Positions 8,994-39,131 of a stretch of 39,131 nt of DNA are shown piece after piece (within the stretch, counting starts at the first letter, position 1; every line of letters starts with the position of its first letter). The stretch comes from Acholeplasmatales bacterium (GTDB lineage: Bacteria > Bacillota_I > Bacilli_A > Acholeplasmatales > Anaeroplasmataceae), in assembly GCA_017444645.1 (NCBI GenBank), contig JAFSWG010000017.1, forward strand, positions 1-39,131, written 5' to 3'. The notes beneath the pieces are model-generated. The model was given only the letters and a program-made list of their open reading frames with translations, had not been told where the DNA came from and made no database searches. The position numbers were made by a program, and so were the translations under genes.

Positions 8994-9022
8994 TTGACAA
9001 AATAATTATTAGATAATATAAT
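8994..9022 (+). promoter_or_regulatory. Full-consensus SigA promoter of the diguanylate cyclase gene
   Basis: TTGACA (8994-8999), a spacer of exactly 17 nt and TATAAT (9017-9022). It begins 2 nt after the stop codon of the preceding gene. It is the best promoter in the window, which suggests strong, mostly constitutive transcription. Confidence 0.93.
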
Positions 9023-9060
9023 TGTTTTGTATTTTATCTTACATTTCAGGAGAAAAAGTT

Positions 9061-14456: not shown

Positions 14457-16427
14457 ATGATATTAAATTCTTCGGCTTATAATTATATTCTTTATTTTGA
14501 TTATGCATCTATACTTATAATCATTTTATTAATATCAAGTGTTTATTTACGTCATTTAAATAAATCTAGATCAAGTAAAGTCTTTTTAGCCCTATTAATA
14601 ATTTGTTTCATTACATCCTTTTTTGATATCTTATCAGCAAATTTATTAAATAAATACGTAGATTATAACATTAAATCTTTTGATCACAATTTATATTTTT
14701 CGTACTTATTACATGAATTGTATTATTTCTTTAGATATTTAATTGTTTTCACGTATGTAATTTATGTATTAACATTTACTCAATCAATGAAGATGGTTAA
14801 AAAGTCTTTTATTTTTATGATTTTATTAATTCTTCCTGTTTTAGCAATTGAAGTATTGTTATGTACAAATTATTATACTCATTTATTCTTTGAATTAAGT
14901 ATAGATCAAAATACAGGAAAATTAATTAGCACTATTGCTAATTTTGATAAAATAGTTATTGCGGTAGAAGGATATTATTTAGTATTTATTTGTATTCACT
15001 TATTTAGAAATAGAAAAATTTTTAGTATTATTCAAACTTTATCATTTTTATTAATGGTTCCAATAATGATTATAGCTACTGTTTTAAGATATGTATTTCC
15101 AGATGTTTTATCAGATATGATGCTAATATCATTAGCTTTACTTGTAATAATTCAAAATGTTGAATCTCCTGAATTATTGATTAATTCAAGAACAGGATTA
15201 TTATCATCAAAGCAATTTGAAATAGCAATTAAAAAAGAATATTTATATAAACCTAAATCATCAATTGTATTTGTTAATTTTATTAATTTATATGATGCAT
15301 ATCAAAAATTCAGTTATGATAATGCTGCAAGATATATTAAAATGTTAGCCAATTTATTAGAACAAATTGCTAAGCCTTATCCTGTATATTCAATAGAAGA
15401 AGGGCTTGGTGCTGTAATATTTAACGACAAAGCAAAAGCGATTGAAGCGGGGAGAAAAATATTCAATGATATGTCTAATACTAGATTTATTGATTTGAGT
15501 TTCGCACCTGAAATGGCTGTTTCTATAGTGGATTTATCAATTGATTTTGATAACTACGAGCATTTATTTAATTATGCAGATAATTTCTTAGATTTTAAAA
15601 CAGCTGGTGTTTTAGAATATAGTGAAAGTGCAAAAGATATGATCGAATATATTAAATTAAATATTGAATCAATTATGGATGAAGCATTTAAACAAAACCA
15701 ATTTAAGGTTTATTATCAACCAATTTATGATGTAGAAAATAAGTGCTTTAATTTTGCAGAAGCATTATCTAGAATCGAAAACCATAATTTTGGTATAATT
15801 CAACCAGATTATTTTATACCTTATGCTGAAACTAGGGGAACAATACCATTAATTGATTTACAAGTAATTGAAACAGTTATGAAAATGATATCTACTAGAG
15901 ATTTAAAGGTATTTGGTTTAAATGCGATAACTATCAATTTATCATTAGTCGATTTTACAAATTCTGATTTTGCAGATAAAGTATTAGAATTGAAAGATAG
16001 ATATAAAATAAATCCTGAAATGATTAAGTTTGAAATAACTGAAAGTAAAGATATTAATTATTCATCAAATCTAATAGGAATGATTAATAAGCTAATAGAA
16101 CAAGGCTTTGAATTTATGCTAGATGATTATGGAACAGGCTATTCTAATCTTGAAAGATTTGCTAAATTACCTATTAGTTATGTAAAGGTCGATAGAAGTT
16201 TGGTTAGATTAGCTGTAGACAATAATATGGATGATGCATTAAAATCTACATTCAATATGATTCATGAATTAGGTAGAAAATCTATCATTGAAGGTATTGA
16301 AACAGAAGATGAATATGATGAATTCTTAAAATACAAATGTCATTATATTCAAGGCTTTTATTTAGCTAATGCTCTACCAGAGGATGAATTTATTGATTTT
16401 GTAATGAGTAATAAAAAAATAGAATAA
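14457..16427 (+). CDS. Membrane EAL-domain protein (putative cyclic-di-GMP phosphodiesterase), copy 1
   Basis: 656 residues. About seven N-terminal membrane helices (residues 8-235) form a probable sensor. Next comes a degenerate GGDEF-like domain (about 240-390) whose signature position reads EEGLGAVIF, so it cannot synthesise cyclic di-GMP, though it may bind GTP. The EAL domain (about 400-650) keeps the key residues: E435-A-L in AEALSR, INLS, EITES, D556-D557 in LDDYGTGYSNLERF, the Lys of YVKVD and E612 in EGIET. Hydrolysis of cyclic di-GMP to pGpG is therefore expected. A strong GGAGGTGA site lies just upstream. The next gene is a paralogue with the same layout, 34 nt away. Confidence 0.9.
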   Translation: MILNSSAYNYILYFDYASILIIILLISSVYLRHLNKSRSSKVFLALLIICFITSFFDILSANLLNKYVDYNIKSFDHNLYFSYLLHELYYFFRYLIVFTYVIYVLTFTQSMKMVKKSFIFMILLILPVLAIEVLLCTNYYTHLFFELSIDQNTGKLISTIANFDKIVIAVEGYYLVFICIHLFRNRKIFSIIQTLSFLLMVPIMIIATVLRYVFPDVLSDMMLISLALLVIIQNVESPELLINSRTGLLSSKQFEIAIKKEYLYKPKSSIVFVNFINLYDAYQKFSYDNAARYIKMLANLLEQIAKPYPVYSIEEGLGAVIFNDKAKAIEAGRKIFNDMSNTRFIDLSFAPEMAVSIVDLSIDFDNYEHLFNYADNFLDFKTAGVLEYSESAKDMIEYIKLNIESIMDEAFKQNQFKVYYQPIYDVENKCFNFAEALSRIENHNFGIIQPDYFIPYAETRGTIPLIDLQVIETVMKMISTRDLKVFGLNAITINLSLVDFTNSDFADKVLELKDRYKINPEMIKFEITESKDINYSSNLIGMINKLIEQGFEFMLDDYGTGYSNLERFAKLPISYVKVDRSLVRLAVDNNMDDALKSTFNMIHELGRKSIIEGIETEDEYDEFLKYKCHYIQGFYLANALPEDEFIDFVMSNKKIE

Positions 16428-16461
16428 TCAATTTAAATCATTAAGAAGAGGAGGTGATATA

Positions 16462-18417
16462 ATGCATGGAATATTTTATTTTGATTTATCAGCAGTATGT
16501 ATAGTTATAGCTTTATTTGTAGCTGTATTAATCAAAAAGATGTATAAGAGTTATAGTTCAAAGGTATATATTGCAATATTAGCTATATTACTCATAACAT
16601 CACTTGCCGATGTTGCATCATGTTTTCCCACAATTTTAAGTGGAACATTTTTAAATATAGCAACAACGTTATATCACCTATTTAGAAATTTATTATTAGT
16701 TGTTTATTTATTATATGTGTTATCTCTTTGTGAACTTGAAAGAATATTAAAACAAAGAAAACATTTAATATATATAGGTATAATTCCTATCGCAATAATA
16801 TTTTTATTAATTTTAACTAATCCATTCACTCATTTTATTTTCTATTATGATTTTTTAGATTCAAATGGTAATCCAACAGAAGTAATTGAATATCATAGAA
16901 GTAGTGGAATTGCATTTATTTATGCTAATTCAGTAATATATTTAGGATTAACATTATTTGTAATTATTAAATATAGAAAATTATTTAATAAAAGAGAAAT
17001 TATTTCCATTTGTGCAATTTTTCCGTTAACTTTAATATCGTTAATCATTCAATTATTTAATCAAGGATTATTGGTTGAAATGTTCGCGTCTGCCTTATCA
17101 GCAGTATTAATATCAGTTGCTATCGAAAGACCAGATGATTTCATTGATGAAAAATTCTTAATTGGAACTAAAAAAGCTTTTGTAAAAGAACTTAAAAAGA
17201 CATATTTATTTAAATCTCATTCATTTGAAATAATCATAAAAATAAAGAATTATTTTGAATTATATGAAGTATTTAATTATGATGATGCAATAGGATATGT
17301 AAGGAATTTATCGTTAAATTATGAAAGAAAATATAGAGCTGTAGATAAATCAGTTAAATGTTTCTATGTTGATAACGGATTATTCGCATTATCTGTGTCA
17401 TCTAATAAATACCTAGCTGAAATAGCTGACGGAATCAAAGAAGATTTTATTACTCTAAAGAATAGTAGACTAAGATTTGTTCCTGATGCACAACTTGTTA
17501 TTATTGATACATTAAATGATTTTAAGGATTATAATGATTTCTTATTTTTCTTAAATAATTATAATAATATGCTTCAATTTGAAGGAGATATTATTAAACT
17601 AGATGATGTTAAAGAGGATAGAACATTTAAAATTATTTCTAATATTGATTCAATTATTGAAAGTGGTCTAACTAATAGAGAATTTGAAGTGTTTTATCAG
17701 CCAATTTATAATGTAAAACATAAAAAATTTCATTCTGCAGAAGCGTTAGTTAGACTAAATTCAAAGGAATATGGTTTTATATCTCCGGGTCTATTTGTAC
17801 CACGCGCTGAAAAGACAGGTAAGGTAATAGAAATTGACCAATATGTATTTGAAGAAGTATGCAAATTTATTGCTTCAAAAGAGTTTAAAAAATCAGGATT
17901 GAAATATATAGAAGTAAATTTATCAATGATAGATTGTGTAAGCCCATATTTGTATCCAAGAATCATCTATTTAATAGAAAAATATGGTATAAGACCTGAA
18001 CAAATTAATATTGAAATAACTGAAAGTTATGACTCTTTAAATAGATTAATAGCTAAAGATAATATTGATAAATTAAGAAAATATGGATTTACATTCTCAT
18101 TAGATGATTATGGTACAGGCTATTCTAATTTGGAAAGATTTGCCTTATTACCTATTTCATATGTAAAAATAGATAAATCAATAGTTGATTCGTCAGATGA
18201 TAGAAAGATGAAAATAGTAATTAAAAATACTTTTGATTTAATTAAATCATTAAAAAGAAAAACAATTATTGAAGGAATTGAAACAAAGGAACAGGCAGAT
18301 AGATTTATTGAATTAGATTGTGATAATATTCAAGGATATTATTTTTCTAAACCATTATCATTTAAAGATTTTATTGATTTCGTATATAAAAATAATAAAG
18401 TAATTGAGTCGGATTAA
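16462..18417 (+). CDS. Membrane EAL-domain protein (putative cyclic-di-GMP phosphodiesterase), copy 2
   Basis: 651 residues, paralogue of the preceding gene. About seven membrane helices (residues 5-220), a degenerate GGDEF-like domain with YVDNGLFALSV at the signature position, and an EAL domain. E427-A-L is in AEALVRL, followed by EVNLS, EITES, LDDYGTGYSNLERF, YVKIDKS, EGIET and QGYYFS. The catalytic set looks complete. The EAL half is much closer to copy 1 than the membrane half is, suggesting that the two sense different signals but share output (inference). GAGGAGGTGA precedes the ATG. The stop codon lies within the operon terminator. Confidence 0.9.
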   Translation: MHGIFYFDLSAVCIVIALFVAVLIKKMYKSYSSKVYIAILAILLITSLADVASCFPTILSGTFLNIATTLYHLFRNLLLVVYLLYVLSLCELERILKQRKHLIYIGIIPIAIIFLLILTNPFTHFIFYYDFLDSNGNPTEVIEYHRSSGIAFIYANSVIYLGLTLFVIIKYRKLFNKREIISICAIFPLTLISLIIQLFNQGLLVEMFASALSAVLISVAIERPDDFIDEKFLIGTKKAFVKELKKTYLFKSHSFEIIIKIKNYFELYEVFNYDDAIGYVRNLSLNYERKYRAVDKSVKCFYVDNGLFALSVSSNKYLAEIADGIKEDFITLKNSRLRFVPDAQLVIIDTLNDFKDYNDFLFFLNNYNNMLQFEGDIIKLDDVKEDRTFKIISNIDSIIESGLTNREFEVFYQPIYNVKHKKFHSAEALVRLNSKEYGFISPGLFVPRAEKTGKVIEIDQYVFEEVCKFIASKEFKKSGLKYIEVNLSMIDCVSPYLYPRIIYLIEKYGIRPEQINIEITESYDSLNRLIAKDNIDKLRKYGFTFSLDDYGTGYSNLERFALLPISYVKIDKSIVDSSDDRKMKIVIKNTFDLIKSLKRKTIIEGIETKEQADRFIELDCDNIQGYYFSKPLSFKDFIDFVYKNNKVIESD

Positions 18418-22925: not shown

Positions 22926-23001
22926 TGGTGGACCCTTGGAGACTCGAACTCCAGACCCACTGATTAAGAGTCAGTTGCTCTACCAACTGAGCTAAGGGTC
23001 C
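22926..23001 (-). tRNA. tRNA-Lys (anticodon CUU)
   Basis: 76 nt. The acceptor stem GGACCCT/AGGGTCC and discriminator A are visible, and CCA is encoded. The anticodon arm is ACTGA-CTCTTAA-TCAGT, giving anticodon CTT, which reads AAG lysine codons. The T arm contains the standard TTCGAGTC loop. It has its own near-consensus promoter and terminator. Confidence 0.96.
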
Positions 23002-24589: not shown

Positions 24590-24596
24590 CGATGGG

Positions 24597-24630
24597 AGAG
24601 TCTAAAATTGTGCATTTTAGGCTCTTTTTT
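24597..24630 (+). terminator. Intrinsic terminator of the MATE gene
   Basis: AGAGTCTAAAAT and ATTTTAGGCTCT arms (one G-T pair) with a 5-nt loop, followed by TTTTTT. Confidence 0.9.
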
Positions 24631-24753: not shown

Positions 24754-27700
24754 ATGATCAAGCAATATAAGGAAAATATGGATCTAATTTTAGAACTTGT
24801 TAGAAAGATTCTAAATATAGGTCCAAAGGACAAATTAGTATTTAATAAACTTAATGAAACATTTGATGAAGAGTTTTCATCACCAACATATGTTGATGAT
24901 AAATTATTAAATAAAATGGATTCAATATCTAAAAAAGCACCTAAATATTATTATCCATCTGGATTATTTTTATTTTTTAGAGAATCTTTTGAATACATTA
25001 TTAAATATGAAGATAGATATCATGAAATTAAAAATCAGTTAGAAAAATATAAAGATTTATATGCGACTGTAAATAAATTAAAAGATGATATGTGGCCATT
25101 TCATCCTTTCTTTCAAGAAGCTTTAGTTTTATTTGCTGTATTAGTGGATCCAGATAGCTTTTCAACTGCGATGAATCCAGATTTTGTAATGGAAGAATTA
25201 GTTAGACAAAATGCATTTTATGATGAAGATGGTGATGTAGTTCCTTTTGAATTACAGCTATTCTTTATGAAAATGGATGAATATTTTACTTATGCGGTCG
25301 ATATGCTAAATGAATTAAAAGATTTCAAAGATAAAAATCCTTCATTCCATCAAATTTGTGAAATTAAAAAAGTGCTAGATCAAAAATTTAAAATCTTCCA
25401 ACTAGGCTTTATGTCTAGATATGCAACTTTATATCAATTTGCTTTAATGCAATATGATAAAATTAATAATATTTTAAAAGATGCTTCATCAAATATTTTT
25501 GATAAAGAGCTTAAGGCTACCTATAAGCATATTAAAAATCGAATCGATAGTTTCGAATTTAGAATTAAAACAATTAAGAGAATAGATGAACTAGATAAAA
25601 TTAATGACGAAGTAAATGATTTATATAATTTTTCTGCTGAAAGATATAATGAATATGTTGATTATGTAACATTAATGTATGATGAAGTGCCTGAAATGTT
25701 TGATAAATTAACATTTATAATTACTAGCGAAGAAGAAGGAACAATTAATTATTTATATACATTAATTGATCAACAAATATCTAAAATTGAAGTTATTTAT
25801 GAAGAAAGAAAAAGAATATCAGAGGTTAGAGATTTATCTACAAAGATCAAAAATTTCTATGAGTTCTTAATTGGATTAAATGATGAAATTGGTAATAAAG
25901 AAGAAATATCTAAGAAAAAGATTGGTAACTTTACTTGTAAAAGTGATGCTGAATTTTTATATAAGAGATTAATTAAGCAAAAGGATAATTATTTTAAGCA
26001 CGTAAGAGTATTTGATTACATTGCTATGACTAATGGTTTAACTAATGTAACATTTAAAATTTATACAAGATCTGATTTCCAAAATATTGCAAAAGAAATT
26101 AGAGAAATAGAAAAATTCTTAGTTTTTGTATCTGAAAGTGTATTACCAGAAAATAGAAAAACATTAGAAACTGACCTTGAAAACGAAGGTAGAGAAATAG
26201 ATTTATTTGGTAAAAAGGTTAAAGTAGCCTTAATGAATGAAGATTTTAGTGAAATATCTTTTGATGATGATATGAAATCTCATACTTTTAATATCCATGA
26301 TTACTCTGCATACCATAAATTAGTGGATTATGCAGTGGATGTCAGAAAACAACCAGTATTCCAAGATTATGGTGACATTTCAGAATATCCTTATTTTAAG
26401 CCATTCAAATATCAAGTCGAATCAGTTAGAACAATGCTAAAAAAATTTGAAGGAAGAGGCGTATTTGGTGATCAGGTTGGTTTAGGTAAAACATTAGAAG
26501 CCTTAATGACAGCTGATGTAATGTTTAGATGTGCAACAATTAAAAATTGTGTAATTGTAACAACAAAGTCTACAATTCATCAGTGGAGAAATGAATGTAA
26601 TACTAAATTCCGTCATGAAGACGGCTCACCTATGTTTGAGGTTTATCCTAAGCATGATTCATATTCATTTATTGATTTAATACAAGAATTAAAGAAAGAT
26701 AAGGCTACAAAAAATCAAAATGCCCTAAAGGTTTATTTGGTATCTACAGAACAAATTAAATCTAATTCAACACTTGAATATATTAAAGAATCAAGTGAAT
26801 ATTTTGAATTAAAAAATGCTGTATATAACCCTTCTCCAGAAGTACCTAGTGACATTGATGTCACTGATATGAATATTAGTAAAATAATGTCAATTAAATA
26901 TTTAGATATTATCAAAAAGAGAATACCTAATGAATTATCTAGAAAAATTAAAGAATCTCTAGCAATGAATGAAGATTATCAAAAGCTAACTTCATTTAAT
27001 GTATATGGTTTCTTTACATATGAATTTGATGAAAAGAAAAGAAAATTCTATCCAACAAATGATAGAATCACATCAATGAAAAATGATAATGGATTTATAT
27101 TAGAAAAAGAAAAATCTTTATTACAAAAATATTCAAAATGTTTAGCTAAGATTGAAGAAAGAAAACAAACCTTAATTAAGCTAGTATCAGATATGAGTAA
27201 AAATGATAAGCTGGCAGAAGAAAGATTAATAGATTTATTAATATTTGATGAGGTCCAAGATTTATTAATTGATTTTAATAAAAAAGGAAATAAAGAAGAA
27301 ATTTTACAGGAATTTATAGCTAACATTCAAAAGAAGTATTGTATCTTAATTTCGGCTACACCTATTAGAAATGATTTATCTGATATCTTTAATTTATTAT
27401 ACATGGTAGATAAGAATAGATTAGGTGATAACAAAGAAATGGCTGAAGCTAAATTCTATAATGCTTATTGTGGTGGTGCAAGAAGCTTATCAGAAATGGC
27501 TGAATCTAATGAAGCATCTAAAAAATTTAGTAAGCTAAATGGATTAATTAATTCTATGTTTACTAGAAAGAGATTATATGACAATGATGTAATAGAATCT
27601 ATTAGACGTCATAGCGCAACAGAAATAGAAACTTCTCAAGCAAATTTATATCATAGAGATGATTATGGTGGACAAGCTTTTGTTAAACTTGTAAGTGCTA

Positions 27701-29214
27701 TAAGAAAAGCTCCAGAAATGAAGAATATGAATGATGATGAATTAGATTTATTTGTAAATAAATATATCAATCCATTATTTCCAAAAAGAAAGATTTCAAA
27801 TGAGATATTAAAGGATGCCTTTATGAATATGGCTGATTTAGTTGATCAATCAGTTAAGATTTGTACTAAGAGATTAGAATATCAAATGAGAATGAAGCTT
27901 GAATTATTCAATGTATATGATAAGTTCATTGAAAATTATAGAATCATTATAAAATCGGAGAGTGAAAATGATTTATCAATAATTTATAAAAAAGCAGTAG
28001 ATACATGTGATTTATTATCTTCGTATATCAATAGAGGACTTTTAGCATTCTATAGAGGATATCATGATTATTCAGCAGTATTTATTTCAGATTATATAGA
28101 TTGGAGAAGACCTAGAAAAACAGGTGAAGCAATTGATATAACATCTGAAGATAATAAGATTGATATGTTAACTTCATTATTAACAATTAATGATAAAAAG
28201 TTTAATGAGTTTAATATTTCAAAAGAGAATTTATTATTTATTGAAACAGCTAAAACATTAGTTTATGAACGAAAGCCTGAATTAAGAAGTAAGCTATATA
28301 GAAATATTAGACAAAATAAGAATCTATTTAATAAATCAAGAAGAGTATATATGAATTTATATATGTCTGAAGAAGATAATTATAATTTTGATGATTTCGT
28401 TCATTTTGGATATTTCCCTAAAGGTCAATATTCAAATAAGATGAAAGAATATATGCTAGAAATAACTTCAAAAGATGATAATGAACTAACTTACGAAGAA
28501 AGAAGATTAAAGGAATCTTATACAATAAATGGTTCATTAAAAAAGGCAGAAGTTGGAGATACATTTAAAGAATTAAATTATAATTGGTTTACTGAATTCA
28601 CTTCTGAAAATGAAAATTGGAACTCATTATATTTCATAGATAAAACAATGGTTGCTGGTACAGACTTTAACGCAGCTAATTTATTAATCATTGGTCAATT
28701 AGATAAACAAAATGGTGAATATATGGATCCACTTGAGTTAGAACAATTAATTGGTAGAATCTCAAGAATGGGACAAACTGAAACATGTCTTGTATTAACT
28801 TGTTTAACCAATGGTAGTGAAAATATTGATCATGTATTTAATAAAGAATATTATAATATTTTAACCGACGAAGAAGGATTTGATTTATATGGTGTATGTC
28901 AAACAGAGGTTGATTTCGTTATGCCAGTAATTATGGCAGTATCTAGAAAACTATTCTCAAAAGAATCATCATATTTAAAAATTGATAATCCTAATTTAGA
29001 AAATATTAATAAAGATTTTGTTGCAATATACCATGATGAATATATAGAATTTAATGCCAATAGATTCCCTGATATTGTTAGATATGTAATTGATAATAAC
29101 GATAATATAGATGTTTATTACAATAAAACTATCTTGAAGCCACTTGATGCCTTAAAAGAAATGATTAGATTGTATTCTAAGGTATTAAGAAATGACGTTA
29201 AAGATTTGGGATAG
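24754..29214 (+). CDS. Giant SNF2-like superfamily 2 helicase/ATPase
   Basis: 1486 residues. Residues 1-540 are a long helical region with no recognised domain. The ATPase core begins near 548 with FKPFKYQVESV. Motif I is GDQVGLGKT (572-580), motif II IFDEVQD (830-836), motif III SATP (867-870), a motif V-like GTDFNAANLL (about 1307-1316) and motif VI EQLIGRISRMGQ (1330-1341). The Q..GR..R.GQ ending is typical of SNF2/HepA-type DNA translocases. About 250 residues separate motifs I and II and about 460 separate III from VI, so both lobes carry large insertions. The first part of the protein might recognise a partner. The start has an AAAGGAG site. It is first in an operon with a Cys-cluster protein and a giant surface protein. 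Role unknown; DNA translocation or remodelling is inference. Confidence 0.85.
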   Translation: MIKQYKENMDLILELVRKILNIGPKDKLVFNKLNETFDEEFSSPTYVDDKLLNKMDSISKKAPKYYYPSGLFLFFRESFEYIIKYEDRYHEIKNQLEKYKDLYATVNKLKDDMWPFHPFFQEALVLFAVLVDPDSFSTAMNPDFVMEELVRQNAFYDEDGDVVPFELQLFFMKMDEYFTYAVDMLNELKDFKDKNPSFHQICEIKKVLDQKFKIFQLGFMSRYATLYQFALMQYDKINNILKDASSNIFDKELKATYKHIKNRIDSFEFRIKTIKRIDELDKINDEVNDLYNFSAERYNEYVDYVTLMYDEVPEMFDKLTFIITSEEEGTINYLYTLIDQQISKIEVIYEERKRISEVRDLSTKIKNFYEFLIGLNDEIGNKEEISKKKIGNFTCKSDAEFLYKRLIKQKDNYFKHVRVFDYIAMTNGLTNVTFKIYTRSDFQNIAKEIREIEKFLVFVSESVLPENRKTLETDLENEGREIDLFGKKVKVALMNEDFSEISFDDDMKSHTFNIHDYSAYHKLVDYAVDVRKQPVFQDYGDISEYPYFKPFKYQVESVRTMLKKFEGRGVFGDQVGLGKTLEALMTADVMFRCATIKNCVIVTTKSTIHQWRNECNTKFRHEDGSPMFEVYPKHDSYSFIDLIQELKKDKATKNQNALKVYLVSTEQIKSNSTLEYIKESSEYFELKNAVYNPSPEVPSDIDVTDMNISKIMSIKYLDIIKKRIPNELSRKIKESLAMNEDYQKLTSFNVYGFFTYEFDEKKRKFYPTNDRITSMKNDNGFILEKEKSLLQKYSKCLAKIEERKQTLIKLVSDMSKNDKLAEERLIDLLIFDEVQDLLIDFNKKGNKEEILQEFIANIQKKYCILISATPIRNDLSDIFNLLYMVDKNRLGDNKEMAEAKFYNAYCGGARSLSEMAESNEASKKFSKLNGLINSMFTRKRLYDNDVIESIRRHSATEIETSQANLYHRDDYGGQAFVKLVSAIRKAPEMKNMNDDELDLFVNKYINPLFPKRKISNEILKDAFMNMADLVDQSVKICTKRLEYQMRMKLELFNVYDKFIENYRIIIKSESENDLSIIYKKAVDTCDLLSSYINRGLLAFYRGYHDYSAVFISDYIDWRRPRKTGEAIDITSEDNKIDMLTSLLTINDKKFNEFNISKENLLFIETAKTLVYERKPELRSKLYRNIRQNKNLFNKSRRVYMNLYMSEEDNYNFDDFVHFGYFPKGQYSNKMKEYMLEITSKDDNELTYEERRLKESYTINGSLKKAEVGDTFKELNYNWFTEFTSENENWNSLYFIDKTMVAGTDFNAANLLIIGQLDKQNGEYMDPLELEQLIGRISRMGQTETCLVLTCLTNGSENIDHVFNKEYYNILTDEEGFDLYGVCQTEVDFVMPVIMAVSRKLFSKESSYLKIDNPNLENINKDFVAIYHDEYIEFNANRFPDIVRYVIDNNDNIDVYYNKTILKPLDALKEMIRLYSKVLRNDVKDLG

Positions 29215-29226
29215 GATGTGATTATT

Positions 29227-31311
29227 ATGAATATTGAATATGCTAATAATTTAATAAATTATGCTTTAAATATTGGAATGTTAATAAAAGATGAAAATGA
29301 TAATTATATCCTAAACGACGTTATATATCATTTTGATTTTTCAGATATTGAAGATAAAGAAAATGAATTATTATTAAAGGATTTAAGATCTAATTTACCA
29401 ATAACAGAAGTAATAGATTTAGTTAAAGAAGCAATATCTTTAAATATCGTTACAGATGTTAGCTCTGAAAATAAGCTTACAGATTTTTTAGATTTTGATG
29501 ATTATATTAGTATCGTTAATGAAAATCATTTCTTATTTAAAATAAATAGTGAATCATTTGATGATACTATTTATAAGGTAACATTTGATAAGCGTAAGCA
29601 TGATATTAAAAGAAAAATTGAATATGCGAGCCGTACATCACAATTTGTTGATACTTTATTGAAAAGAATAATGGCTAAATATAATATTTTATTAGTTAGA
29701 AAAGCTGATTTTAGAACTGATAAATATCCTACTTTAAAGGAATCAGATTATTATGAAGCTAAATTTAGTCATATTATTGATACAGAAAGTGAAACAGATA
29801 CAATTCAAAATGAAATAAAAGTTATGGTTAATTATAAAGATAATTTTAATAACCAAACTGTAAGTGAAAATGTTATTGATGATATATTTATTTCATTATC
29901 AAAAAATGAAGTGTCATATGGTTTTTATAACATTGGTCAAAGTGAAGCAGAGCCAGTATATGATGCGATAAATGAAAGTGTTGATTTAGAAGATATTGAT
30001 TCATTATTAAGAATAAGAAATCTAATTTCTTCCCCAGAAGTTAAATTTAATATCTTTGAAACATTAAGAAATAATAAAGATACAAATTTAGCTAAATTAA
30101 TCGAAACAAGAGAAGAAAATCTTAATGAAACAAAATCCTTAGAGCCTAAAATTGAATTTACTGTTACTCCACTTTCAATATATTGTAATCACATTGTAGA
30201 GAAGAAATGTGTTTATGAAATAGTTAGTAAAAATCCATATTATAAAGATTATCCATTATTATATGAAATTTCTTATAATCCTGCTGATTTAAATGATATT
30301 TCATTTGATGTAGATATTGATGGTATTGTTGAACGAGTAAAAAATCAAGATATTATTCTAGCATTTGATGACGCTCCAACAAGAGGTAATGTAACGCCTA
30401 GAATGACTATTGAAAGATGTGCTGTAATGCTTTATGGATTTAATGAGAGATTTAATGATGAAATATACAAGGATGTATATTTTTTGAAAGATTCTTTAGT
30501 TAAATTAATTAATAATAAAGTTGAACCATTTGATGGTAATTTAGATGATAATACATATTTAAAGAGCCAAATAGTTAAAGGTGAAATAACAGGTAATTAT
30601 TATTACATTGGTGACGCGGTTGAAATGGATTCAAATGATATTTTAGGTGCTGCAATTATTGAAGATAATAAGAAACATTATGTATCTAAAGAATATGCTA
30701 GAAAATGTGATACATGTAATCACTTATTTGGTGCTACAAATGAGATTTGGAAAATGTATACTGATTCCCATTTAATTATCAATAGTGATAATAATAAATC
30801 ATGTTGTGATTACTGTGCTAATGAAGAAGATAATTATAAATATAATAACGGATTGTCTATTCTTTATTCAAAAGGACAGAAGAAGTATTTCTTAGATGAT
30901 ATTAAGAATTTAAAATATACTGACAGATGTATATCTTGTGAGAATAAGCATGAATCTATCTTATTTGTGAATCCTAATATGAAAACTCATTTACCTGATA
31001 TTTGTATATCTTGTAAAAGATATTATTGTCCTACACATATAGACTCCAAAACACATATTTGTGTAAATTGTTCTAAGAATGTTAATGCAAAGGATATAAA
31101 GGAATTAAATCAAAAGCTTCAGGTTCATGCTAGAATGAATATTCAAGCTAAAGATATGTTTAAAAAGCAATTATCATTCTATTTTAATGAAGAATGGAAT
31201 GCATTATGGATTTATTCAGAATCTAAGAATAGATTAACAACATATTATATGATTACAGATGATAAAAAGAAATTTATGCATCTAGAAAAAGTATTTAAGA
31301 TAAAGAGGTGA
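29227..31311 (+). CDS. Unknown protein with C-terminal zinc-binding cysteine clusters
   Basis: 694 residues, family not recognised. Residues 1-480 are acidic and soluble without catalytic signature. The C-terminal third has paired cysteines: C494/C497, C526/C527/C530, C568/C571 and C593/C596/C601/H604/H610/C612/C615. The last set, CxxCxxxxCxxH then HxCxxC, resembles B-box or treble-clef zinc fingers. At least two zinc sites are likely. ATG 29227 is chosen because AGGATGTG lies 6 nt upstream; a GTG at 29218 is the alternative. It lies 12 nt after the helicase and 6 nt before the giant membrane protein. A role as adaptor or nucleic-acid-binding partner of the helicase is inference. Confidence 0.75.
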   Translation: MNIEYANNLINYALNIGMLIKDENDNYILNDVIYHFDFSDIEDKENELLLKDLRSNLPITEVIDLVKEAISLNIVTDVSSENKLTDFLDFDDYISIVNENHFLFKINSESFDDTIYKVTFDKRKHDIKRKIEYASRTSQFVDTLLKRIMAKYNILLVRKADFRTDKYPTLKESDYYEAKFSHIIDTESETDTIQNEIKVMVNYKDNFNNQTVSENVIDDIFISLSKNEVSYGFYNIGQSEAEPVYDAINESVDLEDIDSLLRIRNLISSPEVKFNIFETLRNNKDTNLAKLIETREENLNETKSLEPKIEFTVTPLSIYCNHIVEKKCVYEIVSKNPYYKDYPLLYEISYNPADLNDISFDVDIDGIVERVKNQDIILAFDDAPTRGNVTPRMTIERCAVMLYGFNERFNDEIYKDVYFLKDSLVKLINNKVEPFDGNLDDNTYLKSQIVKGEITGNYYYIGDAVEMDSNDILGAAIIEDNKKHYVSKEYARKCDTCNHLFGATNEIWKMYTDSHLIINSDNNKSCCDYCANEEDNYKYNNGLSILYSKGQKKYFLDDIKNLKYTDRCISCENKHESILFVNPNMKTHLPDICISCKRYYCPTHIDSKTHICVNCSKNVNAKDIKELNQKLQVHARMNIQAKDMFKKQLSFYFNEEWNALWIYSESKNRLTTYYMITDDKKKFMHLEKVFKIKR

Positions 31312-31317
31312 TAAAAT

Positions 31318-34300
31318 ATGGTTTTATATGACAATATAGATAATGCTATAAAAGAAAAAAAACAAAAACTTAATAACAACCATATTAGAAACCTAAAGAT
31401 TATGAACATCTTAAATGCTTTAGTAATGACATTTTTAATTATCATTGATATATTCTTATTAATAAAAGGTATTTTTACAGGTATGCCTAGTTCGGTTACA
31501 GCATTATTAATAATATTTGTTGTAGCACAAACTGGATCTTTAGTTGTATTTTCAATTAAAAGATTTGCAAGAGCTAGTATGGTTACTAAAGTTGGTATAG
31601 TAATTATATGTACATTACCAATTATTCCATATATTATTTATTTATCTATTGGTAATAATATTTATATTGCATGTCTAATAGCAAGAATTATAGGTGTTAT
31701 TGCCTTAGCTATGTTATTATTTAATGCTAAAACAACAAATGATAAGAAAACATTTGGTGTTAAAGGCATTCCACTTGCGATAGCATCTTTATTTGCTTTA
31801 TTAGTAGTAATATATATTTTAGTTTCAACTACTAATAGAAAAGTAATATATTCATATGATCCTTTGTATGACGGATATGTAGTAAGTGATGTATTATCAG
31901 GAAAAGGTGAAGTAAATATTGATAATAATACAGTAGCTATTTCATCCAAGTCCTTAAAAAATGTTAGTGGAAATTTAGTAATACCAAAGAATGTTAGATA
32001 TATAGCGGAAGATGCATTTGTCGATTCAAATATTACCTCATTAACTATTTATTCTGAAAATATTGAGTTAATGAAGGCAGTAAATAATTCAAATATTGAA
32101 AATATATATTTAGAAAGTACAAATGCAACAATCGATGTTGATAACCTAGATAAAGATATTGAAATTGCAACTAATAGAGAAGTAGTAGATCAATATAGGG
32201 AAACATATAGAAAATATGATTATTTATTTGTTCCTAAATTAAATTCAGGTGAATATTATGTATGTTTCAACGGAACAAATCTACCAGTATATATTTATAA
32301 GGAAGAAAAAGAAATAAATGAACCACAAAAGGATTCTCTTCCAAAAGAAATAGATGGAAAGAAAATATTATTTAATGGTTATTATGTTTCTAATAAAGAA
32401 ATTAATTTCCCTATTAATGTTTCATCTAACACTAAAATAGCTTGTGAATATAGTTACATTTATAATGTTACATATGACTTTTCAGGTTGTGAAGATATAT
32501 ATGATCTTCCAACAACTTATTATAATAAAATAGGTGATGTTGAGCTTCCTGAATTAAGTAAGGATGGATACCAATTTAAGGGTTGGTATGATGTTGATCA
32601 ATATGGAAATTATACAAAAGAGTATAAGAAATTAGATAGAACATTAAAGAATGATATTAATTTAAAAGCAAAATTTTTGAAAGAATTTACAGTAACATAT
32701 GATAAGGTATTATCTAATGCTACATTAGATGGAAATACAAAAGAAATTTATACTGAAGAAGATGTTGTTGAATTAAAAAATCCAACAATTGATGGATTTA
32801 CATTTGATGGTTGGTATTTAGATTCAAAATATAATGTTAAAGCAACTACTTATCTAAATAGTGATACAACTTTATATGCTAAATGGAAAATCAATAATAT
32901 CGTTACATTATCTGATGATGTTAATAAGGTATTTGACAATACTGAATCTAATGTTAATGTAAGCGCAGTTGCAGAATTAAAAGATGTTACAATTTCATAT
33001 AGTTTCTATGATAAAGATGATAATTTAATTGTTAACGATAATAATTTTAATGTTATTAATGCAAAAGATTCAAATGATTATTATGCAAAGATAACATTTA
33101 ATTATAAAGATATAGTTATATATGAAATGAAAACTGACTATATCAATGTAACAATAAATAAGGCAACATATGATATGACAGATGTTGTTGTTAGTGATGA
33201 AGAATATGTATATGATGGCACATTCCATACACCTAGTATTACAGGTGTTTTACCTACAGGAATAGATAATATTCAAATCACATATAGCTTTGATGAAGGA
33301 ATTAAAAATGTTGGTACTAAAAATGTATTATGTCATTTTAATACTTTATCTGAAAATTATGAAATACCTTCTGATATTGAAGGAATTGTTACAATTACAG
33401 AAAGAGAAGTAACAATTAATTGGAATAGTAAATTAGAGTTTGAATATGATGGAAGTATGAAATTCCCTGAATACACATTAAAGAATGTTATATCATCTGA
33501 TATAGAGAATTTAAAATGTAATTCAACAGGATCAGCAAATGGTATAGGAGAACATACTGCAAAAATTACATCATTAGTTCAAGATAGTGGAAATGTTTAT
33601 AAAAATTATAAATTAACAAGCAACCAATCTAATTTAAGTATTCAATATACAATTGTTCCTAGAACTAATGAAATTGATGGAATTAGTGTATCCGATGTTG
33701 AAGCTGTATACGATGGAAAAATACATTTACCAGAAGTAGTTAAGCCATCTGGAATTGAAGCAAAATATTCAATTGAACCTGTTAATGTAGGTACATATAA
33801 TGTGGTTGTTAGTTTCGAATATATAACTAATCCAAATGAAAAAATTGGAAATATTTATAATTCAACAGTAACAATTACCCGACGTGAATTAGATATTAAT
33901 TGGTATATAGATGAAGAAGAAACAAACACAACCGTATATGATGGTAAATCACATGTGATTGACTATGAGATTACAAATTTAGTAGGTAATGATAAAGTTG
34001 AATTAGATTATAATACTTTTGATTTATTAAATGCTGGTAATTATTCAATTTCTTTCGAGATTAGTGGTGACGATAAAGATAATTATATTTTAACTAACAA
34101 AGAATTCAAATATACAATTACCCCAAAAGAGATATCATTTGATTTAAATGATTTAGGATTTAATGATACAAATTATACATATAATGGCAAGAACCAATAT
34201 CCTTCTATTGATATTGATAATCCAAATCTTCCTAAGGGTGTGGTTGTATCATATGAAGGTTATGGAAAAGAAGCAAAAACATATAATGTTACAGCTAACT

Positions 34301-37300
34301 TTAGTATTAATTCTACAAATTACAAGATAGCTGATAGTTCAAAATCTAAAACAATTAAAGTTGTTATAAATCCAAAAGTTGCAGAAATTACATGGGGACA
34401 AAGAACATTTGTATACGATGAAAAAGAGCATTTCCCAACTGCGACAGTAGGTAATTTGGAGTCTGGTGATACATGTAATGTAGTAGTTACTTATAGGGAA
34501 GAATATGCAATGACCCCAGGTACATATACAGCTGTTGCTAGCGAATTAAGTAATAAGAATTATATATTACCAAATGATGAAAGTAAGACAACAACATCAT
34601 TTATTATTGAAGAAGCTGAATATGCCTTCACATATGAATTCAATCCATTAGAAGTGGATTATGATGGAAACTTCCATATGGTAGAAGTTGAAATTGATGA
34701 TATGCCAAATTGGTTGTTTATTAATTATAAGACATCTGATGGTGATGAGATAATAGATGGATTTAAAGATGCTGGAACGTATGTAGTTTTAGCTGAGTTT
34801 AAATCTAATAATCCTTCTTACTCTGTACCTTCTGAGCCTATCCAAACTACTGTGACAATTAAAGCATTAGAGGCAAATATTTCATTTACTCTTGAAAATA
34901 ATACATATACAGGTGAAGCAATTTATCCAACAGCCAAAGTAACTAATGTGGTTGAAGGAGATAATCCTATTGTTATATTAGATAGAGGAAAGGATAATAT
35001 TAATGTTGGCAATTATGTAGTTAAAGCTATCGAAATATCTGGCAATAGTAATTATAAGATTAGTAACTCTGTTGCATATTCTTATGAAATTAAAAAGGCT
35101 ACATATGACACATCAAATATTCAATTTGTTAATAAATCATTCGAATATGATGGACATGTTAAGAATATATTTATTACTGCAAAGGATGAATTATTAGGTA
35201 CTGAAATAAAAGGAAAAGATGGTGTAGTTGTAACTATAAGCTATTCTGATGGATTAATCGATGTTGGTACAAAACTAATTACAGCGACATTTACAGGATC
35301 ATCTAATTATAACGAAATACCTCAAATGACAGCATATGTAACTGTTGCACCAAAAGAAGTAGAACTTCGTTGGGGAGGTTCTTCATTCACATATACAGGT
35401 ACTGTAATTAAACCTGAATGTATTATATCTGGTACTGTATTAAATGATACATGTTATTGTACAGTTAATGCATCTGGAATAAATGTTGGTAAGCATATAG
35501 CTACAGCATCTAATTTAACAAATTCAAATTATAAATTACCACAAGATAATTCATACGAATATGAAATAACAAAAGCAACAATTGATATTTCAGGCTTATC
35601 ATATAATTCAACTACGAAGGTTTATGATTCAACTGACTTATATCCTGAAATTGTAGGTACAATACCTGCAGGTGTTGATGTAACATATGAAGGATTATCA
35701 AGTGAGGTAGGAGTTCATACTATTACTATTAAATTTGATGCAGGAGAAAACTATAACAAGATTCCATCTAAGGAAATAGATGTAGAAATTACTAAACGTC
35801 AAGTATCAATTAATTGGACTGATTTAGAAGCACCATATACAGGTGTAGAATCTTATCCAAGCTATGAATTGTCAAATATTATCTTTGGTGATATTTGCGA
35901 AGTTGTATTTGATGAAGGTGGAATTGAAGTTGGTGAACATACTATTAATGTATTGAGATTAACTAATAATAATTACGAACTTGATAAAGAATACTCTGTT
36001 ACATATAAGATAATTAAATTAGATTATGATATGTCTGGTATTAAATTTGAGAATGTAGAATTAGAATATAATGGTCAAGAACAAAGACCTACAATTTCTG
36101 GCACATTACCTCAAGGCTTATCAGTAAGCTATAGTGCTGGTGCTACGAATGTAAGTGAAGGTACAAAAACAGTTACTGCAACATTTACATCATCTGATGA
36201 TAATTACATTGCACCTAAGCCAATGACAGCAACAATTACAATTTTACCTAAGGTATTAAATGTATCTTGGACAAACACTACAGTTGATTATGATGGAAAA
36301 AAGCATTCTCCAACTGCAACATTAAGTGGATTTGTTGGTGATGATACTGCGACTGTGACTATAACTGATTATGGTATTAATGCAGATACATACGAATGTG
36401 GTATTGCATCTATTTCAAATAAGAATTATTCTGTGACATCAACAGTAACATTAACAATCAATAAGATTGATTATGATATGTCAGATGTTAAATTTGAAAA
36501 TGTTACATTTACTTATGATGGATTAGAGCATCAACAAGAAGTTACAGGATTATCTTCTGTAATTGGAATTGATGGTATTAGTCTTGAAATAAATGAATAC
36601 ACAGGAGTGGCAAAAAATGTTAGTGATTCAGGTGTAGAATGTACTGTTTCATTTAAGACATCATCTCCAAATTATAATGTTCCAAATGATATGACTTGTA
36701 TAATTAATATCACTCCAATAACAGTTGATTTATCAATTAAGTTAGATACAAATTCAAGCGTTGTTGCTAGTACTCAATCATGGAATAATTGTTATAGTAT
36801 TTCAACAACTTATGATGGATTAGAACATACAGTAATTATTGGATATGATTCAAAAAATATTGTATCTGGTGATAATGTATCATTTAGCATCGATGGAACA
36901 TTTAAAGATTATAATAGTGGAAATGCACATGCATTTGATATTATTTCTAATAATTCTAATTATGTATCTACATATAATAAGCTTAATGCATATATTAATC
37001 AATTAAATGCTGGATATTGGTGGAATGGTATAACTCCAGGTTGGTGGCCAAGTGACGTTAGTAGTCTTCCAGATGTAGTATTAATTTATACTCATACATC
37101 TATTGATGGATTAACTTATACAGATGAAATACCAACAATATATGGAAGTTATACATTAAGATATGAATCAATTACTGAAAATGTTAAAATTAGCAATCCA
37201 CAAGAATCAACATCTACATATGATGTTTCACTGACTGGAGATAGTTTATTAGCTCTAGCACATTATTATGATTCCAATAATGATGGTAAGATTACAGATT

Positions 37301-37788
37301 ATCCTGAATTAGTTAATATAGAATCATTATATAATCAATTGGGTGAAAATATTCCTGAAATTGAAGAAATAATAAATACATCTTATGCTGATTATATTAG
37401 TGATGCCGAAATAATTGAATTTGTGAAGAAGGATTCAACAGTAGTATCAACTTCTGATTATTGCACAAATGTTAGCGGAAATCTAAAAGATAATATTGAT
37501 TCAAAATTATACTATGGTCATAAATTTGAAACTGCTATTAAGATGGAGACAGCAACTAATATTACATTGAATTTAGAAGGCACAGATTTTACATATGTTA
37601 TTTTAGTGACAGATGCCGCAAATAAGAAGATTAAAATAAATAATTATACTACAGATTCAAGTGGTAATTATTTTGCAACAGATGATGATGGAACTATGAA
37701 ATTACGATTTGAAAGTACTCCAAATAGTTTAGTTATTACAAAAAATGAGAAAGATGTTAATCTATATGGAATTATTCTAATGAAATAA
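31318..37788 (+). CDS. Giant membrane-anchored surface protein: five TM helices, LRR-like, Flg_new and MBG-type repeats
   Basis: 2156 residues. Five hydrophobic helices (29-50, 58-80, 91-111, 114-136, 149-170) follow a charged N-terminus, which should place the rest outside the cell. A short BspA-like leucine-rich stretch (about 205-270) precedes two Flg_new/InlB B-repeat domains (about 385-460 and 460-525, GYQFKGWY and GFTFDGWY with LKAKF and LYAKW). Next come sixteen MBG/YDG-type Ig-like repeats (about 616-1950). The last is degenerate with a Trp-rich insertion (GYWWNGITPGWWP). An EF-hand-like loop DSNNDGKITDYPE (1985-1997) and a C-terminal beta-rich domain end it. No cleavable signal peptide and no LPXTG motif. 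AGAGGTGA precedes the ATG. An adhesin or cell-envelope role is inference. Confidence 0.85.
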   Translation: MVLYDNIDNAIKEKKQKLNNNHIRNLKIMNILNALVMTFLIIIDIFLLIKGIFTGMPSSVTALLIIFVVAQTGSLVVFSIKRFARASMVTKVGIVIICTLPIIPYIIYLSIGNNIYIACLIARIIGVIALAMLLFNAKTTNDKKTFGVKGIPLAIASLFALLVVIYILVSTTNRKVIYSYDPLYDGYVVSDVLSGKGEVNIDNNTVAISSKSLKNVSGNLVIPKNVRYIAEDAFVDSNITSLTIYSENIELMKAVNNSNIENIYLESTNATIDVDNLDKDIEIATNREVVDQYRETYRKYDYLFVPKLNSGEYYVCFNGTNLPVYIYKEEKEINEPQKDSLPKEIDGKKILFNGYYVSNKEINFPINVSSNTKIACEYSYIYNVTYDFSGCEDIYDLPTTYYNKIGDVELPELSKDGYQFKGWYDVDQYGNYTKEYKKLDRTLKNDINLKAKFLKEFTVTYDKVLSNATLDGNTKEIYTEEDVVELKNPTIDGFTFDGWYLDSKYNVKATTYLNSDTTLYAKWKINNIVTLSDDVNKVFDNTESNVNVSAVAELKDVTISYSFYDKDDNLIVNDNNFNVINAKDSNDYYAKITFNYKDIVIYEMKTDYINVTINKATYDMTDVVVSDEEYVYDGTFHTPSITGVLPTGIDNIQITYSFDEGIKNVGTKNVLCHFNTLSENYEIPSDIEGIVTITEREVTINWNSKLEFEYDGSMKFPEYTLKNVISSDIENLKCNSTGSANGIGEHTAKITSLVQDSGNVYKNYKLTSNQSNLSIQYTIVPRTNEIDGISVSDVEAVYDGKIHLPEVVKPSGIEAKYSIEPVNVGTYNVVVSFEYITNPNEKIGNIYNSTVTITRRELDINWYIDEEETNTTVYDGKSHVIDYEITNLVGNDKVELDYNTFDLLNAGNYSISFEISGDDKDNYILTNKEFKYTITPKEISFDLNDLGFNDTNYTYNGKNQYPSIDIDNPNLPKGVVVSYEGYGKEAKTYNVTANFSINSTNYKIADSSKSKTIKVVINPKVAEITWGQRTFVYDEKEHFPTATVGNLESGDTCNVVVTYREEYAMTPGTYTAVASELSNKNYILPNDESKTTTSFIIEEAEYAFTYEFNPLEVDYDGNFHMVEVEIDDMPNWLFINYKTSDGDEIIDGFKDAGTYVVLAEFKSNNPSYSVPSEPIQTTVTIKALEANISFTLENNTYTGEAIYPTAKVTNVVEGDNPIVILDRGKDNINVGNYVVKAIEISGNSNYKISNSVAYSYEIKKATYDTSNIQFVNKSFEYDGHVKNIFITAKDELLGTEIKGKDGVVVTISYSDGLIDVGTKLITATFTGSSNYNEIPQMTAYVTVAPKEVELRWGGSSFTYTGTVIKPECIISGTVLNDTCYCTVNASGINVGKHIATASNLTNSNYKLPQDNSYEYEITKATIDISGLSYNSTTKVYDSTDLYPEIVGTIPAGVDVTYEGLSSEVGVHTITIKFDAGENYNKIPSKEIDVEITKRQVSINWTDLEAPYTGVESYPSYELSNIIFGDICEVVFDEGGIEVGEHTINVLRLTNNNYELDKEYSVTYKIIKLDYDMSGIKFENVELEYNGQEQRPTISGTLPQGLSVSYSAGATNVSEGTKTVTATFTSSDDNYIAPKPMTATITILPKVLNVSWTNTTVDYDGKKHSPTATLSGFVGDDTATVTITDYGINADTYECGIASISNKNYSVTSTVTLTINKIDYDMSDVKFENVTFTYDGLEHQQEVTGLSSVIGIDGISLEINEYTGVAKNVSDSGVECTVSFKTSSPNYNVPNDMTCIINITPITVDLSIKLDTNSSVVASTQSWNNCYSISTTYDGLEHTVIIGYDSKNIVSGDNVSFSIDGTFKDYNSGNAHAFDIISNNSNYVSTYNKLNAYINQLNAGYWWNGITPGWWPSDVSSLPDVVLIYTHTSIDGLTYTDEIPTIYGSYTLRYESITENVKISNPQESTSTYDVSLTGDSLLALAHYYDSNNDGKITDYPELVNIESLYNQLGENIPEIEEIINTSYADYISDAEIIEFVKKDSTVVSTSDYCTNVSGNLKDNIDSKLYYGHKFETAIKMETATNITLNLEGTDFTYVILVTDAANKKIKINNYTTDSSGNYFATDDDGTMKLRFESTPNSLVITKNEKDVNLYGIILMK
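33160..37190 (+). repeat. Array of 16 MBG/YDG-type protein repeats in two alternating types
   Basis: In translation the array is eight pairs. Type A begins like YDMSDVKF, has YDG...P and LP.G..V.Y, and ends NY..P....TVTI.PKEV. Type B begins like INW or VSW, has YDG/YTG...PT, GD, GI.VG.Y or GEH, and ends NY.L....Y.I.KA. Each unit has about 70-87 residues. The DNA is too diverged to be a recent tandem duplication. The final B unit is degenerate. Confidence 0.8.
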
Positions 37789-37804: not shown

Positions 37805-37841
37805 AAAAAGTTGTGTTGATAAAATCAGCACAACTTTTTTT
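37805..37841 (+). terminator. Intrinsic terminator of the helicase/surface-protein operon
   Basis: AAAAAGTTGTGTTGAT and ATCAGCACAACTTTTT arms with one G-T pair and a short loop, followed by T residues. It is the only terminator seen after 24630 in this direction, supporting a single three-gene transcript. Confidence 0.88.
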
Positions 37842-38089: not shown

Positions 38090-38842
38090 ATGGAATATAT
38101 TAAATTAACAAAGGATAATATTGAAACTGAACATATTTGCTGTGCTATATCTAATAACAATGATGTACAAGTATCTAGCAAAAAAGCTTGGTTAAAAGAA
38201 AGAATAGATGAAGGATTAGTATTTTTAAAAAGTGTAGAAAGAGGCAAATGCTTCATTGAATACATACCTGCGGAATATGCATGGAATCCAATTGATGCTG
38301 CAGGATATATGTATATAAATTGTTTATGGGTATCTGGTTCATTTAAAGGCCATGGTTATTCCAATGACTTATTAAATGAATGCATTAAAGATTCAAAAGA
38401 AAAAGGAAAGAAAGGATTATGCATTTTATCATCCAAAAAGAAATTACCATTTTTGGCAGATTCTAAGTATTTATCTTATAAAGGGTATAAGGTTGCTGAT
38501 ACTGCAACTAATGGAATTGAATTATGGTATTTACCATTCAATGATAATAATGTAATACCTAAATTTAAAGACTGCTGTAGAGATCCTAAAATAGAAGAAA
38601 TGGGATATGTATTATATTATACTAATCAATGTCCATTTAATGGTAAATATGTACCAATATTAGAAGACATTGCAGTAAAGAATAATATTCCATTTAAAGC
38701 TATTAAAATAAATAGATTAAATGAGGCACAAAATGCCCCAACTCCTATAACAACATATTCATTATTTTATAATGGAAAATATATAAGTAATGAACAAATG
38801 AATGAATCAAGATTTTTAAAATTAGTAGAAAAAAATAAATAA
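38090..38842 (+). CDS. yoaP: GNAT N-acetyltransferase with C-terminal YoaP-like domain
   Basis: 250 residues. The N-terminal GNAT domain (about 1-150) has the core strand YINCLWVSGSFKGHGYSNDLL, where the GHGYS stretch corresponds to the acetyl-CoA pyrophosphate loop (Q/RxxGxG/A). It continues with a KGLCILSS strand. The C-terminal part (about 165-250), with GYVLYYTNQCPFNGKYVP, matches the YoaP-like domain, found fused to GNAT in Bacillus YoaP and relatives, and looks thioredoxin-like. The substrate is unknown. AGGAG lies 9 nt before the start, which is 12 nt after the small ORF. A long terminator follows. Confidence 0.85.
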   Translation: MEYIKLTKDNIETEHICCAISNNNDVQVSSKKAWLKERIDEGLVFLKSVERGKCFIEYIPAEYAWNPIDAAGYMYINCLWVSGSFKGHGYSNDLLNECIKDSKEKGKKGLCILSSKKKLPFLADSKYLSYKGYKVADTATNGIELWYLPFNDNNVIPKFKDCCRDPKIEEMGYVLYYTNQCPFNGKYVPILEDIAVKNNIPFKAIKINRLNEAQNAPTPITTYSLFYNGKYISNEQMNESRFLKLVEKNK

Positions 38843-38963: not shown

Positions 38964-39010
38964 GAAGGTATTTATTAATGCCATAGAAATTAATAAACGA
39001 GGAGAGAAAA

Positions 39011-39131
39011 ATGAAAAAAGAAGAGATAAAAGAAATGATTTATGAAATTAATGGAAAGAGAATAATGCTAGATTTTGAGCTTGCAAAATTATATGGATAT
39101 GAAACAAAAAATTTAAATAGGCAAGTTAAAA
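39011..39131 (+). CDS. ORF6N-domain protein (partial, runs off the window)
   Basis: The first 40 residues are visible. IYEINGKRIMLDFELAKLYG followed by ETKNLNRQVK matches the start of the ORF6N DNA-binding domain found in phage antirepressor-like and accessory chromosomal proteins. A GAGGAGAG site lies just before ATG 39011. The C-terminal part, which would decide the role, is outside the window. Confidence 0.82.
   Translation, partial: MKKEEIKEMIYEINGKRIMLDFELAKLYGYETKNLNRQVK

Follow-up and report, generated by a model that had tools for sequence, protein, structure and literature searches.

The stretch of DNA analysed here (the window) is the whole 39,131-nt contig JAFSWG010000017.1 of an Acholeplasmatales bacterium (assembly GCA_017444645.1), numbered C1 among the 69 contigs of this 1.59-Mb metagenome-assembled genome. 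Three consecutive genes on its forward strand encode an SNF2-type helicase, a soluble cysteine-cluster protein (P2) and a very long predicted surface protein (P3), and are referred to below as the unit. An earlier reading made from the letters of the window (the sequence-only reading) had described these three open reading frames (ORFs) and proposed that they form one operon and one functional unit. The ORFs were confirmed, and their positions and features are listed in Table 1.

The helicase and P2 genes are separated by 12 nt if P2 starts at ATG 29227, and by 3 nt if the listed GTG 29218 is used. Alignment showed that the orthologues start at 'MN', which corresponds to ATG 29227 and supports the 12-nt gap. 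The spacing between P2 and P3 is 6 nt, and the gaps of 12 and 6 nt given by the sequence-only reading hold, the former with this start of P2. Its claim of a ribosome site by each stop stood in part: AGGAG-type sites lie ahead of the helicase and P3 genes, and the site ahead of P2 is weaker. As it had also stated, no terminator-like site was found on the forward strand within the unit; hairpins flank both ends. The upstream one ends about 125 nt ahead of the helicase start, and a strong one with a T run comes after the P3 stop, where similar sequences were also seen by eye in most orthologous units. Because of the close spacing and the flanking terminators, the three genes are likely to be co-transcribed as one operon.

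Conservation and exchange of the three genes

The distribution of the unit was determined in 27 species genomes of the genus. The results showed that the helicase is encoded in 10 of them, and that P2 and the N-terminus of P3 are found in the same 10. The other 17 genomes, several of which are at least 95% complete, lack both the helicase and P2 and show no more than repeat-type matches to P3. There is no genome in the genus with one unit gene alone, and the gene order is constant. The P2-P3 junction is intact in all 10 units and the helicase-P2 junction in 9 (the contig of G018 breaks at this point), with intergenic gaps ranging from -1 to 13 nt across the orthologous units. When the flanking ORFs were compared all against all, only the three unit families were common to every locus, and other neighbours were common only to pairs of genomes. 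Since no other family is common to all loci, we consider that the unit consists of exactly three genes.

A profile of P2 recovered the same 10 genomes, and none beyond, from an order sample of 160 genomes. Among about 390 class genomes it gave no match outside the genus, and viral contigs, plasmids and phages gave none at all; in about 390 genomes of the phylum the only match was a weak one in G190, which lies within an ABC transporter gene and was regarded as a chance hit. For the helicase, only generic SNF2-core matches were obtained outside the genus. Weak helicase matches in G031 and G029 were rejected, as both cover only a short stretch; the G031 match belongs to an SNF2 protein of the ordinary kind, and its gene neighbours are equally unremarkable. 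When 84,980 species, each represented by one genome, were scanned with peptide patterns taken from one sequence, an approach that extends only to close relatives, four loci were detected, which match those of G003, G025, G004 and G006.

The sequence-only reading had held that helicase homologues lacking the other two genes would speak against a joint unit; such homologues were looked for and none was found within the family. The all-or-none occurrence in 27 genomes, with order and spacing kept, strongly supports the proposal that the three genes are one functional unit. That they are chance neighbours without joint function, for which only the odd mixture of functions speaks, is contradicted by this comparison, because the junctions are kept in changing contexts, and it appears extremely improbable.

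The units fall into two groups, A (G000, G003, G004, G006, G016 and G025) and B (G008, G009, G010 and G018), between which the identity is about 57% for the helicase, 48% for P2 and 32% for the P3 N-terminus. The group A units are nearly star-like. Those of G000 and G016 are 81% (helicase) and 76% (P2) identical, yet the RecN proteins are 52% identical. The units of G016 and G004, two closely related genomes with TypA proteins 95% identical, show a mutual identity of 81/76%, no closer than to G000, and these two genomes are not sisters in the tree of helicase plus P2 (94%). The unit tree also groups G018, not G010, with G008 and G009, a conflict supported by 100% against 99%. The housekeeping tree used in this comparison was built from TypA and RecN, two genes with some missing data, and is a thin species tree; synonymous distances are near saturation in these AT-rich genomes and were given no weight in the argument for transfer. 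Because the two trees conflict, the unit appears to move horizontally within the genus, and repeated transfer is the simplest reading. For the close pair G000-G025, the ratio of non-synonymous to synonymous substitution (dN/dS, by simple counting) was about 0.12 in both the helicase and P2; within P3 it was 0.20 at the N-terminus and about 0.36 in the ectodomain. All three genes are therefore under purifying selection, the outside part of P3 being the least constrained.

It might be argued that the unit is cargo or a relic of an integrative element, its genes being held together by linkage and not by function. The differing genomic contexts and the ORF6N or RhuM genes near two of the copies would fit such an origin. 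However, the loci have no notable flanking direct repeat (the longest shared word is 14 bp and AT-rich) and no mobility gene in common, P2 has no relatives in phages, plasmids or viral contigs, where the helicase finds only core matches, and exactly three genes are kept down to about 30-57% identity. This explanation is thus unlikely. A tRNA-Lys gene at 22926 was considered as an integration site and dismissed, as there were no supporting repeats. RecN in the relatives is not followed by the MatE or YoaP genes of the window.

Features of the three proteins

The helicase matches the Pfam model SNF2-rel_dom with an E value of 2e-14. Its architecture comprises a unique N-terminal part of about 540 residues, for which no reliable Pfam match was obtained, the SNF2 core and a long insertion before motifs V and VI, so that motifs III and V are about 430 residues apart. 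The separate Helicase_C model is silent on the window contig, yet the protein has motifs V and VI, in invariant form. Walker A, DExx, SAT and motifs V/VI, which define an SNF2 superfamily 2 ATPase, occur in this order, and the complete motif set is invariant across nine orthologues; in the arginine-bearing motif VI, QLIGRIS-x-x-GQ, there is one M-to-I change among the nine. Judged by these motifs, the protein is an SNF2-family ATPase, as the sequence-only reading had supposed. An AlphaFold2 model of residues 480-1486 (4 sequences) reached a predicted local distance difference test score (pLDDT) of 34 and was unusable.

P2 has a highly conserved middle region, and its two invariant Cys/His groups, seen in all 10 orthologues, are both C-terminal, which bears out its earlier description as a Cys-cluster protein. 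The second group reads C-x2-C ... C-x2-C-x4-C-x2-H-x7-C-x2-C, a treble-clef spacing like that of FYVE and AN1 fingers. Scores of the P2 C-terminus against these zinc-finger families were below threshold, each match occurring in 1 of the 10 members. Searches of Pfam, PADLOC, NCBIfam and PHROG gave no match of substance and placed P2 in no known family. The AlphaFold2 model (5 sequences; mean pLDDT 40) was unusable.

The third ORF had been read as a surface protein of 2156 residues, and the comparison agrees with this. Five hydrophobic segments are found in P3 of all 10 orthologues, and P3 of the window has a positive-inside pattern with a predicted N-in/C-out orientation; because the positive charges lie on the predicted inner loops, the N-terminus is predicted to be inside and the remaining approximately 2,000 residues outside. 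P3 is thus predicted to be a membrane-anchored protein with a modular ectodomain of about 2,000 residues. The transmembrane (TM) module and the juxtamembrane region are collinear in 10 of 10 orthologues, across both divergent groups, and K12, I23, N25, K27 and N30 of the short cytoplasmic tail are invariant. By profile search, no further full TM module turned up in the class sample; class-wide matches to the P3 N-terminal profile were rejected as relatives, since they cover only the leucine-rich repeat (LRR) part or the stretches just preceding it. Giant surface-type proteins are also encoded in two relatives: an open frame of 12,865 residues with P3-like MBG-type repeats (G012:C26) and one of 16,208 residues with an LRR match (G031:C8).

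Table 1. Features of the three-gene unit in the window and the basis of their assignment
Feature	Position	Strand	Basis or remark
Terminator-like hairpin	24594-24628	+	End of upstream MatE gene and border of the unit; minimum free energy (MFE) -14.5, z -3.0
Predicted SNF2-family ATPase/translocase, 1486 residues	24754-29214	+	ORF, Pfam, motifs
SNF2 N-lobe, Walker A GDQVGLGKT, residues 547-690	26392-26823	+	Pfam SNF2-rel_dom and ResIII; invariant
Motif II DEVQ, residues 832-835	27247-27258	+	Invariant in 9 orthologues
Motif III SAT, residues 867-869	27352-27360	+	Invariant in 9 orthologues
Motifs V/VI GTDFNAAN ... QLIGRISRMGQ, residues 1302-1341	28657-28776	+	Invariant in orthologues
P2, soluble protein, 694 residues from ATG	29227-31311 (GTG 29218 possible)	+	Orthologue alignment
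P2 Cys cluster 1, C497-x2-C500 ... C529/C530-x2-C533 (numbered from 29218)	30706-30816	+	Invariant in 10 orthologues
P2 Cys/His cluster 2, C571 C574 C596 C599 C604 H607 C615 C618	30928-31071	+	Invariant in 10 orthologues
P3, predicted membrane-anchored surface protein, 2156 residues	31318-37788	+	ORF, hydrophobic segments
P3 five-TM module, residues ~25-177	31390-31848	+	Hydrophobic segments; unit-specific, no full match elsewhere in class sample
P3 BspA-type LRR-like stretch, residues 199-273	31912-32136	+	Sub-threshold match
P3 Listeria-Bacteroides repeat, better of two stretches	32686-32883	+	Pfam scan
P3 stalk, ~15 MBG-like 'YDG' repeats of ~80 residues	33199-36927	+	Motif spacing by eye, no Pfam hit
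P3 C-terminal CBM77-like domain	37462-37743	+	Sub-threshold, 21.6 bits against a cut-off of 25
Terminator hairpin and T run after P3 stop	about 37805-37839	+	MFE -18.1, z -4.7

Comparison with known systems and genomic surroundings

The helicase was compared with the SNF2 proteins of known systems. It scored 41.1 bits against the DrmD equivalog of DISARM (cut-off 610, a core-only match), 43.6 against the DpdE equivalog of Dpd (cut-off 500) and 40.3 against the RapA equivalog (cut-off 576), and so misses all three cut-offs more than tenfold. Against full-length BrxHI of BREX it reached 34.9 bits, the best stretch covering 72 of 933 positions, and against ZorD of Zorya, which carries an Mrr-like nuclease, 13.6 bits in the core only. 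Neither P2, P3 nor 10 further ORFs of the window gave a PADLOC match to drmA, drmB, drmC or the DISARM methylase. Likewise, no Pfam or PADLOC match to the MotA/MotB-like ZorA and ZorB was obtained in P2 or P3, and none in the scanned neighbours. More generally, neither P2 nor P3 fitted any PADLOC model. These results agree with the sequence-only reading, which had found the DISARM and Zorya diagnostic genes absent and the composition fitting no known system; on these scores, the unit belongs to none of DISARM, Zorya, Dpd, BREX and RapA.

Likenesses to these systems are partial. With DISARM (DrmD), Dpd (DpdE) and RapA the unit shares the SNF2 core of its helicase, but no other Drm protein was recognised among the ORFs scanned and no other Dpd protein in the unit, and the helicase has no similarity to RapA outside the core. 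Zorya type I also combines a membrane complex bearing an extracytoplasmic part with soluble partners and a helicase (ZorD), and in it ZorAB sense and recruit ZorCD (PMC11890865); unlike Zorya, the unit has no recognised ZorA, ZorB or Mrr-type nuclease, and P2 and P3 are unrelated to its proteins in sequence. The long repeat stalk and the Listeria-Bacteroides-type repeats of P3 resemble those of Bacillota fibrillar adhesins, whereas its anchoring by an N-terminal five-TM module and its locked association with a helicase and the orphan P2 do not. No description of such a three-gene system was found in the literature. The gene set thus appears new relative to the libraries searched, a status that distant fold kinship of P2 could change.

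Several genes around the unit were recorded. At 9022-10134 and 14457-18417 of the window, one GGDEF protein is encoded along with two EAL proteins, of which one has a 7TM sensor region; genes of cyclic di-GMP turnover are thus clustered here in a 1.6-Mb genome. At 38090-38842 lies a gene for a GNAT acetyltransferase fused to a YoaP-like C-terminus, and the last stretch of the contig, about 39010-39131, holds the beginning of an ORF6N-domain gene. In G003, a RhuM-family gene lies close to the unit, as does a gene (L049 6084-8540) whose product joins 15 Sel1 repeats to a TIR-like domain that scored below cut-off. In G008 (L057 9832-15858) and G009 (L059/L060), the unit has upstream of it a DUF2779-like gene and a neighbouring pair of MutS-like ATPase genes, all named by eye, as well as two unknown genes; genes upstream in these genomes were rejected as further members of the unit, being confined to that pair.

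Possible role of the unit

Defence systems commonly combine SNF2 motors with unusual partners, and the SNF2 core of the helicase matches PADLOC models of such systems, in which these motors recur. For this reason, and because Zorya provides a precedent for a path from envelope sensor to helicase (PMC11890865), a defence-like role is favoured. The reading that we tentatively prefer is that the operon is a horizontally exchanged unit in which an envelope event may be relayed via P3 and P2 to the SNF2 motor, probably to protect the cell from phages or other mobile DNA. P3 would project its long modular stalk outside the cell, and the arrival of a phage or foreign DNA, or contact, would alter its membrane module. 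As a soluble orphan with zinc-type clusters, P2 would relay the signal or bridge to the SNF2 ATPase, which would translocate on incoming or bound DNA and displace or block it. Such a logic of membrane sensor, soluble partner and SNF2 motor would resemble that of Zorya, from unrelated parts.

Several results weigh against this proposal. None of the three proteins showed a recognisable nuclease, methylase, killing or toxin domain, and the helicase matches to defence proteins are limited to the generic SNF2 core. The loci are not clear defence islands, since the neighbours of the unit are mostly housekeeping genes, with RhuM/ORF6N, TIR-Sel1 and RelA/SpoT genes only scattered among them. For these reasons the roles suggested by the sequence-only reading, namely surface-triggered defence, DNA uptake or a contact-dependent function, are conjectural. 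The AlphaFold2 models of P2 and the helicase are too poor to probe contact between the proteins. Finally, the P3 stalk of adhesin-type repeats is equally suggestive of adhesion.

The main rival is accordingly that P3 is a fibrillar adhesin and that the SNF2 ATPase and P2 are its dedicated cytoplasmic control, acting on transcription through the long AT-rich repeat gene or on repeat recombination. RapA-type SNF2 proteins assist RNA polymerase. The LRR-like, Listeria-Bacteroides and MBG-like repeats of P3 with its CBM77-like end, its ectodomain as the fastest-evolving part and the similar repeats in other surface-type ORFs of the genus are consistent with adhesion. But further large ORFs with repeats are found in these genomes, in which P2 is single-copy, so that such proteins need no such partners; the helicase is far under the RapA cut-off (40 against 576 bits), and P3 is less conserved than the helicase and P2, an odd pattern if these two were its accessories. 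We regard this explanation as rather unlikely in itself, though nearly as plausible as defence. In another alternative, P3 would take hold of DNA or of a partner cell, and inside the cell the DNA would be pulled or processed by the SNF2 motor. A membrane protein combined with a DNA-type motor, and the horizontal spread within the genus, would suit DNA uptake or exchange; it is nevertheless improbable, because the unit is not accompanied by a conserved channel, relaxase, pilus or competence gene and SNF2 motors are known to act on double-stranded DNA within cells.

Returning to the defence reading, a more far-reaching form of it is that the unit represents an undescribed, genus-restricted and exchanged immune or contact system, made of a giant surface protein, an orphan zinc-type adaptor and an SNF2 motor, with outside-in signalling unrelated to Zorya; we consider this conceivable but doubtful. 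The evidence speaks for a joint function, both dispensable and transferable, with a link to the surface. Should the three proteins act together, a surface protein of more than 2,000 residues would be coupled to an intracellular DNA motor; the nearest precedent for such a link is the logic of Zorya, here from unrelated parts. An adhesin with a dedicated SNF2 partner, if true, would represent a novel form of gene control. The unit offers a clean and testable three-gene module, naturally present or absent across the genus, for studying why bacteria would wire surface events to DNA translocases.

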